The notes beneath the pieces were generated by a model. The model made no database searches. It saw only the letters and a list, made by a program, of their open reading frames with translations, and had not been told where the DNA came from. 64,000 nucleotides of DNA from Natrinema salaciae (GTDB lineage Archaea > Halobacteriota > Halobacteria > Halobacteriales > Natrialbaceae), in contig NZ_FOFD01000003.1 in assembly GCF_900110865.1 (NCBI RefSeq), positions 434,001 through 498,000 on the forward strand, given 5' to 3'. The position numbers and the translations under genes are program-made. Below, piece by piece: positions 25,226 to 46,137 of this stretch. Every line of letters begins with the position of its first letter. The stretch's first letter is position 1.

Positions 25226-27357
<2,132 letters not shown>

Positions 27358-39135: not shown

Positions 39136-39357
39136 TCAGAGCCAGTCGTCGCCCGGGTCGTTCGACGTCGCCTCCCTGTACGACTCGACCGCCGCCGCGA
39201 GGTTCTCGAGCGCTTCTTCGGGCGTCTGTCCCTGACTCGAGACGCCGGTTTCCTCGTCGTCGGCGATGTGGAGGCCGTGGTCGTTGACTCGCATGGTCAC
39301 GTCCGCGTCCGCGAGGGCGTCGTAGTCCGCGGGGTCAGCGTCGTCGTCGGAGCTCAT
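39136..39357 (-). CDS. HicB-like small protein
   Basis: 73 residues: an acidic N-terminus, then VTMRVNDHGLHIADDEETGV, SSQGQTPEEALENLAAAVESYREA, the RNase H-like partial fold of HicB antitoxins. No HicA-type toxin (small double-stranded RNA-binding fold) is seen on either side, so it is an orphan regulator or its partner is elsewhere. Confidence 0.75.
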   Translation of the reverse strand: MSSDDDADPADYDALADADVTMRVNDHGLHIADDEETGVSSQGQTPEEALENLAAAVESYREATSNDPGDDWL

Positions 39358-39411: not shown

Positions 39412-41643
39412 TCACAGTTCGGAGCGCTTGACAAGCGCGTAGACGAGCAAGGCGGCGAGGATCGTACTGAGGTAGGCCTCGGAGCCGGCGAGCAAGCGGG
39501 CGAGCGGCCCCTCGGGCGCGATGTTCCCGTACCCGATCGTCGTGTAGCTGACGTAGCTGAAGTAGACGTTCTCGTAGAAGACGCCGAGTCCGTCGGCGGT
39601 GGCGAGGTCGCCGATCGAGAGCTGGCCGGCTCCCGTCTCGAACGGCGAGCCGCCGAACGCGTACGGGATCGCGAAAAACAGCGGCGCGATGGCGAACATG
39701 ATGCCGATCCGCATCGGCCGCATCCCGTGTCCGCAGGTGATCCCGAGGAACCAGTTCTCCACGGCTCGCCCGAGGTTCTTCGTCCTGGTCATCAGTCCTG
39801 CGTTCCGGTCGCGGACGGCCTCGAGGTTCTTGTGACGGCTGTACCGCTGGCGCTTGACGCGGAACTCGCCGGCGGTTTTCATGTCGCCGATCTCGCCCGC
39901 GCTCTGTTTGGCCTTCAGATACGTCGATTCGACGACTTCCGGCGTCATCTCGAGGGCGTAGTCGCGATCGACCCCGTCGGCCGGTGGCTGGTCGAAGCCG
40001 TGGATGGTCCAGTCGTTTCGATCGAGGTACCCCCGGTGGCCGCTGAAGTCGAACGTGTGGCCGTCGAACTCGTCGAACTCCGTCCGGCAGAACCGAAAGT
40101 AATCGAGGAGCTGCCGGTGATCGCGCGTCCGCTCGGCCGCGAGGTCGACGTCGCCGATGCTTGCGAGCGTCAGATCGTACCGAACCCACCCCTCCGCGGG
40201 CTGGACGATCCGACCGCTCCGGATCTTCGCGCGGGTGAAATCGACGAACACGTCGTCGTCGATTCCGTGCGCTTCGATGTCGATCCGTTCGGAGACGACG
40301 CACCGGCTGCAGTCGACCGTGCCGCCGAAGGCAGTCTCCTGGAAGTTCGCGGACGCGATCTCGGCGTCGTGAAAGTCGACGTCGTCGGCGAACCGCGCGC
40401 CCTCGAAGGAAACGTCGTCTTTGAGGTGGTTCGCACCGCCGAGGAACTCGCAGCCGCGAAAGGTAGACGGGCCGTCGAACCGAACACCCGAGAAGTCGGC
40501 GTCTTCGCGGAATCGACCCTCGTCGAAGTCGACCCCGCGATCGAACGAGACGTCGGGAAAGTCCGCATCGCCGGCAAACGCCGTCGACTCGAAGCGGGCG
40601 ACCGCTCGGAACGCGGCGGCTTCGAACGTCACGTATCGAAAGGACGCCCGCCGAAACGTCACGTCGCCGTGGAAGGTCGCGCCGACGAAGCTGGCGTCGT
40701 CGATCAGCGTTCGAGCCCCGCCGGCGAACGTCCCACCGCGGAAAGTCGTCCGGCCCCGAAACGCGGCGTCGTCGAACGCGGTGTCGTCCTCGAACCGAAC
40801 CTCGTCGAAGTCCGCATCTGCGCCGAACTCGACACCGCGAAAGTCCGCGTCCCCGGTGAAGGTTGCTTCCCGAAAAACGGCGTTCTCGTGGCACGTGACG
40901 TCGTCGAACCGGGTGAAACCGAACTCGGTCTCGCGGAAGGTCACGTCCGCACGAAAGGTCGCTTCCGAAAACGTCGTGTTGTCCTCGAGGTGATTCGAGT
41001 CGCCGTGACACTCGGCCGCTCGAAACGTTACGTCGTCGTCGAACGTCGCGTCGTCGAAGCGAACGTCGTCGCGGAAGGTCGCCTCGTCGCAGTCGACCGG
41101 CCCCTCGAAGGTCGTCCCGTCGAACGAGACGTCGTCGTCGAACCGCGCTTCGAAGAGGGTCGTCTCTCCGGTGACGGTCGCGTTCGAGCACGAAACCGGC
41201 GCTTCGACGTGTGTCTGTCGCAGTCGGAGCGATCCGATAGTGGCCTCGTCGAGCACGAGCGGCACCGTCACCCGTGCGTGCCCCAGCGAGAGTCCCTCGA
41301 TGGTCGCCCCGCTGAGATCGACCGGGTGCCGATCGACGCTTTCCAACGTCGTCCGGTCCAGCGAGAGCTCGGGAAGCGTCACGCCTTCGAGTTCTTTCTG
41401 CTCCTCGCTCCCGTAGACGAGGACCGAGCGAAACGTCTCGCGGACTTCGTCGTCGGTGATCCCCCGTGCCTCGCGTTCGGCGGGCGAGAGTCGCAGAATG
41501 GCGGGGTCGACGTCCCTGGACGCGCTCGTCGCGAAGCGATCGTCCGTCCCCTCGAGCGTCCCCCGTTCGGCCTCGGTGCCGGTCCGCTCGTCGGCGTCGG
41601 CCCGATCGTCCCGCTCGGCCGCGCCCCCTGCTTCATCTGCCAT
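39412..41643 (-). CDS. Pentapeptide-repeat protein fused to a two-helix K+ channel
   Basis: 743 residues. About residues 90-480 are pentapeptide-type repeats centred on Phe (for example DDVRFDDATF, GDADFRGVEFGADADF), predicted to form a right-handed quadrilateral beta-helix. A helical linker follows. The C-terminal 120 residues contain a transmembrane helix (IGIMFAIAPLFFAIPYAF), a pore helix with the filter TIGYG (702-706) and an inner helix (STILAALLVYALV). This is a ligand-gated-like K+ channel plan with a very large cytoplasmic sensor. The TATA box CATATATGA overlaps the end of the upstream gene. Confidence 0.88.
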   Translation of the reverse strand: MADEAGGAAERDDRADADERTGTEAERGTLEGTDDRFATSASRDVDPAILRLSPAEREARGITDDEVRETFRSVLVYGSEEQKELEGVTLPELSLDRTTLESVDRHPVDLSGATIEGLSLGHARVTVPLVLDEATIGSLRLRQTHVEAPVSCSNATVTGETTLFEARFDDDVSFDGTTFEGPVDCDEATFRDDVRFDDATFDDDVTFRAAECHGDSNHLEDNTTFSEATFRADVTFRETEFGFTRFDDVTCHENAVFREATFTGDADFRGVEFGADADFDEVRFEDDTAFDDAAFRGRTTFRGGTFAGGARTLIDDASFVGATFHGDVTFRRASFRYVTFEAAAFRAVARFESTAFAGDADFPDVSFDRGVDFDEGRFREDADFSGVRFDGPSTFRGCEFLGGANHLKDDVSFEGARFADDVDFHDAEIASANFQETAFGGTVDCSRCVVSERIDIEAHGIDDDVFVDFTRAKIRSGRIVQPAEGWVRYDLTLASIGDVDLAAERTRDHRQLLDYFRFCRTEFDEFDGHTFDFSGHRGYLDRNDWTIHGFDQPPADGVDRDYALEMTPEVVESTYLKAKQSAGEIGDMKTAGEFRVKRQRYSRHKNLEAVRDRNAGLMTRTKNLGRAVENWFLGITCGHGMRPMRIGIMFAIAPLFFAIPYAFGGSPFETGAGQLSIGDLATADGLGVFYENVYFSYVSYTTIGYGNIAPEGPLARLLAGSEAYLSTILAALLVYALVKRSEL

Positions 41644-41677
41644 GGAAACACGTTACGTAAAGCGGCATCATATATGT

Positions 41678-42250
41678 TTAGAAGACGTCGTTCCCTTCGG
41701 AGGGGTGTGACTCTCGCGGCACGTCCGAGACGGGGTCGGGCGACCGCCGGTGCGGTGACGAATCGCGGCGTCTCGTGAAGGCACTCCGCGTGTAGAGCGC
41801 GAGGTCGAACTCCGGGTAGGTGTGGTAGGTTTCGTAGCCGTCCTCGGCGATTTCGATCGTCGTTACGGCGTCGGGATTCCCGTCGAACGCGTACGCGAGG
41901 TCGAACCCGGGTGAGCCGGACCGGAACCGGTCGTGCGGGAACGCCGACAGCGGCCGGTGTTCGACGGTAGTCACACACCGCAGCGCGTCAGTCTCGAAGA
42001 CGAGTCGGCGAGGCGGCCGGTCCGACTCGAGCGGAATCCCCGTTCCGTCACGAACGACCGTCGGGGCGGGGTCACAGGTGGACAGTTCGTAGAAGTCGTA
42101 CTCGGGCGCGCTGACGTAGTGGGAACTGCCGATGATCCGAAACGTGAACGCCGTTCCCAGAAACCGACGCGTGAACGAGTCGAAGACACGAACGTCGCCG
42201 GTTTCCGGTGGGCGATCTGCGTGAACGAACTGGAGGGTTTCTCGTGCCAT
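41678..42250 (-). CDS. DUF2617-like protein
   Basis: 190 residues from MARETLQFVHADRPP. The N-terminal beta-rich core SFTRRFLGTAFTFRIIGSSH and YDFYELSTCDP recalls DUF2617, a family often encoded beside spermidine-synthase-like genes in bacteria. The C-terminus (YTRSAFTRRRDSSPH onwards) is disordered. It begins 1 bp after the stop of the aminopropyltransferase gene, so the two are coupled. The family call is from memory of the pattern and is tentative. Confidence 0.6.
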   Translation of the reverse strand: MARETLQFVHADRPPETGDVRVFDSFTRRFLGTAFTFRIIGSSHYVSAPEYDFYELSTCDPAPTVVRDGTGIPLESDRPPRRLVFETDALRCVTTVEHRPLSAFPHDRFRSGSPGFDLAYAFDGNPDAVTTIEIAEDGYETYHTYPEFDLALYTRSAFTRRRDSSPHRRSPDPVSDVPRESHPSEGNDVF

Positions 42251-42251
42251 C

Positions 42252-44063
42252 TCAGTAGTCGACGACGATGTCGTAGTTCGGGTGCAGGACGCTGTTCGGT
42301 TCGACCCCACGGTAGGCGGGCAGGGTCCGCCACTGCCACTCGTCGAACGCGTCGGCGTGCTCGTGAACGTACTCGCTTTCGGCACGCTCGAGCGCGGGTT
42401 CGGGCGTCGGGCCGTCCGAGAGCACGTAGAAGCGCTCGCCGGGCTCGAGTCGCTCGTCACCGTCGAGGTCGTCGTAGACGTAGTACGGCAGGTATCGGTC
42501 GAACCCCGCCTCGCGGACCGTGTTGGCGTAGACCTTGTGGTGGGCTGGGTCGTCGCTCCGCGCGTAGGTCCAGGTGACGGCGAGGCCGTCGTCGGAGAGG
42601 CGCTCGCGGACCAGCGTGTAGAACTCCGTCGAGTACAGCGACATCGTCTCGTCGCTGCGGATGCCCGGGATGTCAAGCAGGACGAGATCGTAGGTTTCGT
42701 CGGTCTCCTGCAGGTAGGTAAAGGCGTCCTCGACCGTCGTGTTCAGCCGGTCGTACTCGTACGCATCGTCGTTGTACTGCCGGAAGAACTCCCGTTCCCG
42801 CGCCATCTCGAGGAACTCGCCGTCGATATCGACCTGATCGACCGACGCGTTGTACTGGCGAAGGTGGTCGACGGCGATATAATCGCCGCCGCCGACGAGC
42901 AGGACGTCCACCGAGGACGGATCGTCGAAGGTCGTCATCGGAACGTCGACGAGGCCGCTGTGGTAGGAGTCGACCCACCGATCACAGAACTGGAGCGCCC
43001 GATCCAGGCGGAGACACGTCTCCGTTCCGGCGTGGCTCTCGAGGTCGCGCTCGTACGTGAGCACCGTCTGGTACGGCGTGGTGTCGTAGCTGCGCGCCCT
43101 GACGTCCGCCGTTCCGTCGGGGTACTCGCTCTCGATGGTTCGCTCGAGGTAGGTCGTCGTCACGGCCCGGTCGACGGCGTCGGGGTGGGCGACGACGGCG
43201 GCGTAGGAGCCGGTCAGGAGGAGGCCGACGACGAGGACCACCCGCCACCGACCGGTCGTCGGCCGCGAGAGTGATCTGGTCGAGCCCGAGAACGTCCACG
43301 CGGCGAAGCCCAGCGCGGCGACGGCGTTCAACAACCCCAGCGCGAACACGGAGACAACGATTCCGAACCGGGGGTACAACACGAGCGCGTAGACGACCGT
43401 GCCGGCGAGGCTTCCGAGGTAGTCGACGCCGAGCACCTCGGAGAACGACCGCTCGTCCGGCTCGCCGACCGCGAAGAAGACGCCGAGGACGCCGCGGACG
43501 ATCCGTCGCGGGTAGAGGCGACCGAGCGACGCGAAGATCGTGTCTTCCCGGTCCTCGACGAGGTCGGTCAGCAGCGGCACCTCGAAGCCCGACAGTACGC
43601 CGACCACGAGGATCGGGACGTGCGAGAGCGCGAGGACCAGCTGCTCCGGAACGGACCCGGAGAGCGACGGCAGGGAGTTGAGCCCGACGATGGCGACCGC
43701 TCCCGCTGGTCCCGCGACCGCGAGGTACACTTCGGTCCGGAGGAAGTTCGACTCCGGCTCGCCGAGCTGCGCCGAGAGGACCGATCCGACCCCGAGCGAG
43801 AACATGTAGAGTCCGATCGTGATCGAATACCGGAGGACCGTCCCGCCGAAGAAGACGGTGAGCAGCTCCGAGTAGACGAGTTCGTACGCGATCGAACAAA
43901 ACGCGACGACGAACGTCGCCGAAAGCGCCACGCGCCGATCGGTGAGGAGCCGACGTGTTCGCCGGTCCCGCCGCTCTCGCTCCGGCGGTCCCGAACCGGG
44001 TTCGCTCGAACCGGCTCCGTCGCTCCCCCTCCCGTCGGCGCTATCGGTCGGTGTCTCGTTCAT
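42252..44063 (-). CDS. Membrane-anchored polyamine aminopropyltransferase (SpeE-like)
   Basis: 603 residues. A disordered N-terminus precedes about seven transmembrane helices (residues about 45-293). The C-terminal spermidine synthase domain shows YHSGLVDVP (about 367-375), the SAM-binding VLLVGGGDYIAVDHLRQY (391-395 core), VDIDGEF and the catalytic-loop LLDIPGIRSDE, followed by LYSTEFYTLVRERL. In classical SpeE the loop is D-x-x-D-P; here it is D-I-P-G, so the substrate may differ. It is coupled to the DUF2617-like gene. Confidence 0.88.
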   Translation of the reverse strand: MNETPTDSADGRGSDGAGSSEPGSGPPERERRDRRTRRLLTDRRVALSATFVVAFCSIAYELVYSELLTVFFGGTVLRYSITIGLYMFSLGVGSVLSAQLGEPESNFLRTEVYLAVAGPAGAVAIVGLNSLPSLSGSVPEQLVLALSHVPILVVGVLSGFEVPLLTDLVEDREDTIFASLGRLYPRRIVRGVLGVFFAVGEPDERSFSEVLGVDYLGSLAGTVVYALVLYPRFGIVVSVFALGLLNAVAALGFAAWTFSGSTRSLSRPTTGRWRVVLVVGLLLTGSYAAVVAHPDAVDRAVTTTYLERTIESEYPDGTADVRARSYDTTPYQTVLTYERDLESHAGTETCLRLDRALQFCDRWVDSYHSGLVDVPMTTFDDPSSVDVLLVGGGDYIAVDHLRQYNASVDQVDIDGEFLEMAREREFFRQYNDDAYEYDRLNTTVEDAFTYLQETDETYDLVLLDIPGIRSDETMSLYSTEFYTLVRERLSDDGLAVTWTYARSDDPAHHKVYANTVREAGFDRYLPYYVYDDLDGDERLEPGERFYVLSDGPTPEPALERAESEYVHEHADAFDEWQWRTLPAYRGVEPNSVLHPNYDIVVDY

Positions 44064-44165
44064 GTGATCTGAATGCGTCTCAGTCGAACGCTCCGGCAAC
44101 GCTTCCCGCTACTCGAGCCGGGTCGCTTCGAACACCGCCCGCTCGAGTCCCCGGCGGCTCCACCG

Positions 44166-45065
44166 TTACAGCCGCGGCCGAACGTGCCAGGCTTCGTCGA
44201 TCGTCAGCCCGTCGGTCGACCCCCGGTCGAGCTTAAAATCGACCGCTTGCCACTCGAAGTCGGTATCACCGCCGGGCGACTCGAGGTGGGTTCCGACGCG
44301 GTACCAGCCCTCGTCGGCGGTCGTCTCGGTCCCGGGTTCGGTGCCGGCGTCGGCGTCGGTTTCGTTTCCGGACGAGAAATCGGAGTCGACCGCGGTCTCG
44401 TTCCCGGACGGCGAGTCGGACTCGGGAACGGTCTCGTTCCCTGACGGCGAGTCGGCGTCGCCCTCGGTGTCCGACGGGAGCGTCGCGAGATCCACCTCGA
44501 GGGTCGTTCCCGGCTCGGGATCGGTCCACTCCTCGTCCCACGAGACCGGACCCGGACCCGGCGACTCGCCTCGATACTCCGAATTCGAACCCATGTAGGC
44601 GACGCCGAGCGTGGCGACGACCGCGCGATACGTCTCGGTCTCGTGGTCGTCGCGCCAGTTGTTGTGCGTGTGTCCGCCGTAGATAGCCCATCCGTGTCGG
44701 CCGGTGGGTGCCGTCGAGTGGCCGCCAGTGCCGCGCCCGGTCGCACCGCTGGGTCCGGAACTCGTCCCGGACGATCGCGACCCGGCGCGGGCGGTGCCGA
44801 CCGGGAGGAGCGACCCGACGATCGCGGACTCGTCGACGTTGTCGACCGTCGACTCGACTTCCGGTTTCGAGCGCAGATCGATCTCCATCGTTCCGTCGGC
44901 GATCTCGACGTCCTCGAACACCTTCGCCTCACGCGGCGGCGGACCGTCGCTGTCGTCCCCGAGATAGCCGGCTAACCCCCCGCTGTCATCCCCGAGACAG
45001 CCGGCTAACCCCCCCATGATCGCGAGCGCGCCCCCACTGACACGAAGCAACCGCCGTCGATTCAT
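44166..45065 (-). CDS. Tat lipoprotein with a duplicated lipobox and sequon repeats
   Basis: 299 residues from MNRRRLLRVSGGALA. The lipobox is LAGC. An 11-residue unit is tandemly duplicated (GLAGCLGDDSG then GLAGYLGDDSD), with Cys changed to Tyr in the second. The middle HGWAIYGGHTHNNWRDD may be the functional core. The C-terminal third has three SGNET units (N-glycosylation sequons). The family is unknown. It lies about 100 bp before the aminopropyltransferase gene and is probably in the same transcription unit. Confidence 0.7.
   Translation of the reverse strand: MNRRRLLRVSGGALAIMGGLAGCLGDDSGGLAGYLGDDSDGPPPREAKVFEDVEIADGTMEIDLRSKPEVESTVDNVDESAIVGSLLPVGTARAGSRSSGTSSGPSGATGRGTGGHSTAPTGRHGWAIYGGHTHNNWRDDHETETYRAVVATLGVAYMGSNSEYRGESPGPGPVSWDEEWTDPEPGTTLEVDLATLPSDTEGDADSPSGNETVPESDSPSGNETAVDSDFSSGNETDADAGTEPGTETTADEGWYRVGTHLESPGGDTDFEWQAVDFKLDRGSTDGLTIDEAWHVRPRL
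44949..45014. repeat. Tandem 33-bp repeat, two copies
   Basis: Units 44949-44981 and 44982-45014 differ by two bases and encode the duplicated lipobox unit of the overlapping lipoprotein gene. Confidence 0.85.
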
Positions 45066-45171
45066 ACGATCCTGTGAACGTTCCATCACAAAGTGCTTTA
45101 GGTTTTCGAGTCGTTCACTTCATCACCCATCCGAACGGTTGAAGTGAAGTGGTTGAGTAGCTGCGCGTAGC

Positions 45172-46137
45172 ATGAGCGGCAACGAGAACGCGGTTCGTCG
45201 GGAGTTCACGGGCGACGTTCGGGTCGGCGGGGAAGAGACCGAACCCGTCGAACTCCGCGGTGCGGAGGACGTCTACGTGAGCGCCGAGGCCGTGTCGGGG
45301 CGGCTAACCCTCTCCGATCCCGAACACGTCTTCACTGACGTCCCCACCGGCGACGAACCGCTCGATTCGGACGCCGTTCGGACGGTCCTGACCGGCGATC
45401 TCGACGACGGCTACGTCGATCGGGTCGACGGCGACGTCCTCGTTACCGGGGCCGAAGACGTCTTCGTCGAATACGGGGCGGCCGAGACGCTCTCGACCGT
45501 CGGGGCCGAACAGGTCTTCCACGACGACGCGGCCGCGCCCACTCGGTCGCCGGAGGACTACGAGGTTTCGGTGTCGGGCTGGCAGCGGACCCGAGACGTG
45601 CGGGATCCCCGCGACGGCGTCTCGATCAGGGGCGGACGGAACGAGCTGACCGTCACCGACGCGCGACACGACCTCACCGTCTACGTCGCGGGCTGGGGCA
45701 ACGAGATCCGTATCGAGGGCCAGGCTGTCGAGGTGACGGTCTACTTCGTCGGGCGCGACAACCGCGTCAGCGTCGGTCCGTACGTCACGGCGACCACGGG
45801 CGCCGAGAGCGGGTTCGACAACGACCTCGAGTCGGACCCCCTCCCGCCGGAAGCGCTCGTCGAGCAGACGGAAGCGGAGGCCTACGAGGGCAACCTGTTC
45901 GGCCGTCACAAGGTGACCTACCAGGAACCGGCGTCCGACAGGGAGTGGTGTCCCAACTGTGGCGAGAGCGCGGACGCCGTCATCACGCGCAAACAGCGCG
46001 ACGCCTTCTTCCTGTTCGGGAAGCCGATCCGCACGTACGACAGCGGCGACGGGGCGTTCGAATGCGAACACTGTACGCCCGTCGCCGTCGGTCCGGTCGA
46101 ACTCTCGCCCGAGGAACGAAAACGGATTCTCGGATAG
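45172..46137 (+). CDS. Beta-repeat protein with a C-terminal zinc ribbon
   Basis: 321 residues. The first 120 residues repeat a short unit: GAEDVYV, PEHVFT, GAEDVFV, GAEQVFH. Residues about 155-205 have strands of the NELTV/NEIRI/NRVSV type (DUF3060-like beta-solenoid). The C-terminus has Cys260/Cys263 and Cys298/Cys301, a zinc ribbon. It is divergent from the lipoprotein gene. No family name is certain; the role is probably cytoplasmic, as no signal peptide is present. Confidence 0.7.
   Translation: MSGNENAVRREFTGDVRVGGEETEPVELRGAEDVYVSAEAVSGRLTLSDPEHVFTDVPTGDEPLDSDAVRTVLTGDLDDGYVDRVDGDVLVTGAEDVFVEYGAAETLSTVGAEQVFHDDAAAPTRSPEDYEVSVSGWQRTRDVRDPRDGVSIRGGRNELTVTDARHDLTVYVAGWGNEIRIEGQAVEVTVYFVGRDNRVSVGPYVTATTGAESGFDNDLESDPLPPEALVEQTEAEAYEGNLFGRHKVTYQEPASDREWCPNCGESADAVITRKQRDAFFLFGKPIRTYDSGDGAFECEHCTPVAVGPVELSPEERKRILG

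Follow-up and report, generated by a model that had tools for sequence, protein, structure and literature searches.

We analysed a 64,000-nucleotide stretch of the Natrinema salaciae genome (contig NZ_FOFD01000003.1, positions 434,001 to 498,000; hereafter the window), in which five adjacent genes encode a pentapeptide-repeat K+ channel, a DUF2617 protein, a SpeE-like aminopropyltransferase with seven transmembrane helices (7-TM SpeE), a lipoprotein and a beta-repeat/zinc-ribbon protein. Our main new result is that DUF2617 is probably a divergent S-adenosylmethionine (AdoMet) decarboxylase (AdoMetDC). It looks like such an enzyme at the sequence level, in a group of archaea thought to be without one, and we judge it likely that the best overall explanation of the locus is a self-sufficient membrane aminopropylation module in which DUF2617 acts as the AdoMet decarboxylase. 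Aminopropyltransferases require decarboxylated AdoMet (dcAdoMet), which is supplied by AdoMetDC. The known AdoMetDC family (PF02675) was present in 2 of the 212 haloarchaeal genomes sampled and in none of the 35 that carry the module. According to excerpts of Prunetti et al. (PMC5178350), AdoMetDC is encoded by no halophile, and its absence left the role of haloarchaeal SpeE unexplained. The excerpts of the literature naming DUF2617 or DUF4178 propose no AdoMetDC role for DUF2617.

Relationship between DUF2617 and SpeD

The 190-residue product had been called DUF2617-like from the letters alone, and the profile check agrees: it scores 24.1 bits with PF10936, above the gathering cut-off of 22.3. 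When a haloarchaeal DUF2617 profile was searched against all PDB chains, four matches were returned at E ≤ 10 and all were AdoMetDC proenzymes (best E 0.077). Comparison by hhalign with the SpeD sequences gathered here gave a probability of 90, an E value of 1.4e-6 and a score of 45.3, while the maximum score in 60 column-shuffled controls was 17.1; the C-terminal half alone gave E 1.1e-7. In a decoy set of 8,357 open reading frames from 156 loci, the 15 top matches of the haloarchaeal profile outside DUF2617 were all SpeD (E 0.0007–0.05), and the reverse search with a SpeD profile recovered other PF02675 members and then DUF2617. A combined DUF2617 profile matched one SpeD in this set, via the N-half. 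One DUF2617 member also gave AdoMet_dc as second family in a Pfam scan (E 0.058).

Across about 73 archaeal and actinobacterial DUF2617 sequences, Ser43, His44, Glu55, Phe122, Thr130, His143, Tyr145 and Pro146 are invariant, and Cys59 is present in all but one; the window protein and about 40 actinobacterial members have S43, H44, E55, C59, F122, T130 and H143 in common. By alignment, the invariants correspond to the pyruvoyl Ser, the proton-donor Cys, and the processing His and Ser/Thr of AdoMetDC. The matched segments read F..P.GV(S/T)G...ESHxSIHTWPE in SpeD and F..P.AVTT...GYETYHTYPE in DUF2617, with the distance from Thr130 to His143 equal to that from Ser55 to His68, and the distance from His143 to Glu147 equal to that from His68 to Glu72. 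Apart from Ser55, Glu62 and Ser63, the SpeD residue numbers (e.g. His68, Glu72) are those that we assume to apply. Those three follow published numbering (PMC3975893). Serine is missing from the Ser63 position in the C-half of DUF2617; the N-half has an invariant Ser-His, with Cys59 lying 16 residues further on, and in 13 of 34 haloarchaeal sequences the motif is Glu-Ser-His exactly as in SpeD. Eukaryotic AdoMetDC has a duplicated fold and a split active site, one half holding Ser and Cys and the other His; direct alignment with prokaryotic SpeD is limited to its C-terminal half (PMC1282579). DUF2617 is alike in having Ser and Cys in its N-half and the aromatic residue, Ser/Thr, His and Glu in its C-half.

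AlphaFold models of the window protein and of an actinobacterial DUF2617 are confident (pLDDT 88 and 94), and the C-half is modelled with a strand-helix-four-strand order, which we take to be that of SpeD as well. In three haloarchaeal genomes (G037, G149 and G161; loci L178, L182 and L184) the DUF2617 homologue was matched as two pieces split near residue 83, which suggests an insertion between the two proposed halves.

Replacement of DUF2617 by speD

Among 148 Actinomycetes genomes, 30 encode a 7-TM SpeE; DUF2617 is present in 27 of these and SpeD in the other three, a SpeD-or-DUF2617 pattern for which our own arithmetic gives P ~0.0025. In those three genomes (G252, G299 and G328) SpeD does not adjoin SpeE. 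DUF2617 was also missing from five 7-TM SpeE loci on plasmids of Proteobacteria and Gemmatimonadota, and four of these loci have speD within ~5 kb, annotated in Novosphingobium and found in Gemmatirosa, Burkholderia and Ensifer. The Novosphingobium operon (L150; SPFH-DUF4178-DUF350-SpeE-FAD oxidase-speD) shares the core 7-TM SpeE with the archaeal module, but canonical speD replaces DUF2617 and an SPFH protein and an oxidase are present. DUF2617 and speD were seen together in none of the 7-TM SpeE loci read. Since speD replaces DUF2617 both in matching operons and in DUF2617-less actinobacterial genomes, the same product is indicated.

No AdoMetDC is identifiable in Mycobacterium tuberculosis (PMC1282579), while SpeE (PMC11841054) and, in excerpts of PMC11237479, DUF2617 and DUF4247 proteins (CCP45394 and CCP45395) are present. 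If DUF2617 makes dcAdoMet, the haloarchaeal and M. tuberculosis gaps would close together, a family of unknown function would acquire a catalytic role, and polyamine-type metabolism would be predicted in genomes where annotation says that it is impossible. It would also make a widespread membrane system, associated with envelope stress and ion channels, accessible to clean tests.

An actinobacterial SpeD-SpeE fusion of ~400 residues (L087:643-1866) occurs in G328. AdoMetDC-positive haloarchaea were considered as variants of the module, and this was rejected for both G139 and G090. G139 has a canonical speD and soluble speE pair on a 93.7-kb replicon (L085:8292-10154), possibly acquired from bacteria. 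In G090 a genuine AdoMetDC gene at a contig end is convergent with a gene for a pentapeptide protein (L084:6912-9249) that has a related two-helix C-terminus lacking the GYG filter; a 7-TM SpeE of the module family was not found in the G090 genome. Because the G139 pair is separate and soluble and the G090 pore has no GYG, neither is a swapped copy of the module.

Conservation of the module in Halobacteria and its bacterial counterpart

With family-specific profiles for each module family, DUF2617, SpeE and the lipoprotein were each detected in 35 of the 212 genomes, the same ones in every case and spread over 18 genera; the beta/zinc-ribbon protein was detected in these 35 as well, with one weak, partial match in addition. 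An initial search with the Pfam DUF2617 model had recovered 19 genomes, all with an adjoining SpeE and with the zinc-ribbon protein or the channel within a few kb; Haloferax volcanii, included as a control, was positive for PF10936. The co-occurrence of the families exceeds chance, and the sequence-only reading of the window, which had proposed a unit conserved beyond close relatives, is upheld in this respect.

Gene order was read in 34 extended relative loci and the window, contig ends being crossed in two of them (L180 and L179, the latter on an apparently circular contig). In the sampled loci the module genes lie together. All 35 loci keep the order lipoprotein-SpeE-DUF2617, and the zinc-ribbon and channel genes vary in place and strand. 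Where the spacing of SpeE and DUF2617 was measured (18 loci), the two genes mostly adjoin or overlap (−4 to +6 bp). The channel was found at 33 of the 35 loci, and one of the absences abuts a contig end; it is absent from one testable genome (L187). On a Haloferax larsenii plasmid (L156:5171-9908) the lipoprotein, SpeE, DUF2617 and zinc-ribbon genes have no channel beside them, so that a channel is no strict requirement of the locus. The flanking genes are dissimilar between lineages and the module is frequently plasmid-borne, and it is therefore a discrete, patchily distributed unit.

The locus had also been read as an archaeal version of a known bacterial SpeE/DUF2617/lipoprotein/K+-channel system, and for SpeE and DUF2617 the homology is borne out. 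Scanning for the DUF2617 motif WHTYPQTGE identified 11 actinobacterial loci, such as that of Nocardioides (L043), which reads DUF4178-DUF2617-DUF4247-DUF350-SpeE (7 TM)-K+ channel with a TrkA domain. Excerpts of PMC11237479 describe the DUF4178-DUF2617-DUF4247-DUF350-SpeE operon type, with DUF2617 lacking a functional assignment. In profile comparisons, the alignment of haloarchaeal with actinobacterial SpeE spans 431 columns and takes in the membrane part (E 3e-43), and that of DUF2617 spans 126 columns (E 8e-11). The same approach, applied to the operon partners, detected no bacterial counterpart of the lipoprotein or the zinc-ribbon protein; their equation with DUF4247 and DUF4178, respectively, was rejected because profile similarity was absent, and Pfam scans matched none of DUF350, DUF4178 and DUF4247 among the five genes. 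As SpeE and DUF2617 are homologous and the lipoprotein and zinc-ribbon protein not detectably related to the bacterial partners, the archaeal unit has the same core with different accessory proteins. Common to both systems are a two-helix K+ channel and a protein that is either a lipoprotein or secreted, and the actinobacterial genomes too are usually without AdoMetDC (present in 1 of 10 genomes with DUF2617). They differ in the DUF350 of the actinobacterial operon, in the domain carried by the channel (TrkA/RCK there, pentapeptide here) and in the canonical putrescine pocket of the actinobacterial SpeE. Two actinobacterial genomes (G278 and G354) each have two DUF2617 and two 7-TM SpeE genes, arranged as two matched pairs. 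A defence system was considered and rejected, the sole padloc match being a weak one of SpeE to mad2 that we read as fold-level.

A proposed aminopropylation pathway and its alternatives

In the alignment of haloarchaeal SpeE, GGGD (G391–D394) and the catalytic-type Asp464 are invariant, and the YQ and YH elements are kept. Missing from haloarchaeal SpeE are the Glu of YHE (in the majority of members), the His of VHP and, in the DxPDP-type motif, the second Asp; the putrescine pocket (DE..YHE, VHP, DxxDP or DxPDP) is kept in actinobacterial SpeE and lost in haloarchaea. Excerpts of Prunetti et al. (PMC5178350) likewise give haloarchaeal SpeE seven transmembrane helices and note the loss of putrescine residues. 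Among solved structures the closest is a Thermus polyamine aminopropyltransferase (1UIR), with which, among others, the GGGD and Asp464 positions were aligned, and the window protein falls below the equivalog cut-off of NCBIfam PRK03612 (243 versus 472 bits). Given the retention of GGGD and Asp464 and the loss of the pocket, SpeE could plausibly use the donor, and its acceptor is probably an unusual one.

We propose that DUF2617 is a compact two-half protein, in which the N-half would provide Ser43 as pyruvoyl precursor and Cys59 as proton donor, and the C-half Phe122, stacking on adenine, with Thr130, His143 and Glu147. Ser43 would self-cleave, and the dcAdoMet produced would pass to the translationally coupled, membrane-anchored SpeE. 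SpeE may then move the aminopropyl group onto an acceptor at the membrane side, be it agmatine or cadaverine, a lipid headgroup or the lipoprotein, which is predicted to act on the outer face. The pentapeptide K+ channel could be a downstream responder, the least supported step. We put forward only tentatively, and as doubtful, a more far-reaching version, in which DUF2617 would be a third AdoMetDC architecture (a minimal fused two-half form in haloarchaea and Actinobacteria) feeding a SpeE with a membrane acceptor (lipid headgroup or Tat lipoprotein), and the resulting surface charge would control the channel.

Several observations weigh against a decarboxylase role for DUF2617. The family stays under the PF02675 gathering cut-off (best member 14.2 versus 25 bits), the combined profile returned no PDB matches, and hhalign finds little resemblance to SpeD when actinobacterial DUF2617 is compared by itself. 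The match of the N-half to SpeD is short, and actinobacterial members have Ala instead of Glu before the Ser. Unlike eukaryotic AdoMetDC, DUF2617 is about half as large, and hhalign detected no internal repeat between its halves. With Foldseek neither model had a significant match and AdoMetDC was outside the PDB top 50; in a viral library one phage AdoMetDC appeared, weakly, at rank 33 (E 0.18). On these models the Foldseek outcome counts against a simple identity of fold. SpeD is also present in 2 of the 27 DUF2617-positive Actinomycetes. Finally, in excerpts of PMC5178350, H. volcanii has agmatine as its chief amine, with cadaverine second, spermidine was not found, and deletion of its SpeE gene, HVO_B0357, had no phenotype. 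These results fit an inducible system or a non-diffusible product. HVO_B0357 resembles the window gene as a 7-TM SpeE with GGGD(W/Y), whereas the excerpts of PMC5178350 and PMC6267482 mention no DUF2617 partner and declare AdoMetDC absent.

Of the alternatives, the one that fares best, though we think it unlikely, is that of the sequence-only reading, in which a diffusible, charged polyamine made by the module gates or blocks the K+ channel. The near-constant presence of the channel and the RCK-type channel of the actinobacterial operon speak for it, and the conserved unit, the identity of DUF2617 and the bacterial counterpart on which it was built all stood. The gating claim as written was not supported: known AdoMetDC is lacking, the putrescine-pocket residues of SpeE are not conserved, the excerpts of PMC5178350 report no triamine in H. 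volcanii, the channel is missing in L187 and not adjacent in H. larsenii, and the sensor domains differ between bacterial and archaeal channels. A slightly smaller chance attaches to DUF2617 being derived from AdoMetDC and no longer decarboxylating AdoMet, so that it would be an AdoMet or nucleoside sensor or an arginine/ornithine decarboxylase and SpeE would use AdoMet or another donor. Changes of substrate have occurred repeatedly among SpeD homologues (PMC10407285), Gln replaces Glu147 in actinobacterial DUF2617, which also has the Ala before Ser, and the missing spermidine would agree; against this, the Ser, Cys and His are fully or almost fully conserved in both archaea and bacteria, and genuine speD substitutes for DUF2617. 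That DUF2617 is instead a beta-sandwich enzyme of other origin, with only a chance likeness between its HTYPE motif and SpeD, and that SpeE is methyltransferase-like or inactive, is improbable: the Foldseek result and the PSP study, which in its excerpts only predicts a beta-sandwich enzyme (PMC11237479), would allow it, but the shuffle and decoy controls, the equal residue spacing and the genomic replacement by SpeD all oppose it.

Features of the locus

The five genes (Table 1) were all present as first described, four of them on one strand.

Table 1. Features of the module locus, in window coordinates
Feature	Position	Strand	Basis
Pentapeptide-repeat protein with C-terminal two-helix K+-channel pore, filter TIGYG	39412-41643	-	Pentapeptide_3, Ion_trans_2
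DUF2617 protein, 190 aa, proposed cryptic AdoMet decarboxylase	41678-42250	-	PF10936; SpeD profile matches; invariant residues
SpeE-like 7-TM membrane aminopropyltransferase	42252-44063	-	PF01564; GGGDY; Asp464 kept; putrescine-pocket residues altered
Tat-type lipoprotein, obligate partner, without known family	44166-45065	-	Alignment; common to same 35 genomes
DUF3060-like beta-repeat and C-terminal zinc-ribbon protein	45172-46137	+	Weak domain matches; same 35 genomes
speE stop/DUF2617 start junction, TGA-G-ATG	42249-42254	-	1-bp gap

The fusion of a two-helix channel to pentapeptide repeats is supported by Pentapeptide_3 (E=3e-45) and Ion_trans_2 (35.8 bits, cut-off 22.5), and relatives in module loci keep a T[IV]GYG filter; the channel ATG lies 34 bp beyond the DUF2617 stop. 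The SpeE-type domain behind about seven membrane helices was recovered as Spermine_synth (PF01564, 65.6 bits, cut-off 22.9); its start codon is most likely the ATG at 44063, and the DUF2617 ATG does follow its TGA as had been described. The lipoprotein, matched by no Pfam family in our scan, keeps its twin-arginine signal and GC lipobox in 12/12 aligned relatives, with conserved PPPR and GATGRGTGG...SAP motifs. The beta/zinc-ribbon protein combines a CxxC...CxxC ribbon with repeats that weakly resemble DUF3060 (a match found in 13 of 14 relatives, at best with E 4e-5), and its gene is divergent in the genus of the window and collinear in many others. No significant solved-structure relatives were found for either of these two proteins.

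Downstream of the channel, a gene for a 73-residue acidic protein (39136-39357) is kept beside the channel in two loci of the same genus (L022 and L025) and was not found in the remaining loci of the flank clustering. Elsewhere in the window, adjacent TnpA-like and TnpB-like genes on the minus strand (25652-27357) resemble, as judged from the sequence, an IS200/IS605-type element.

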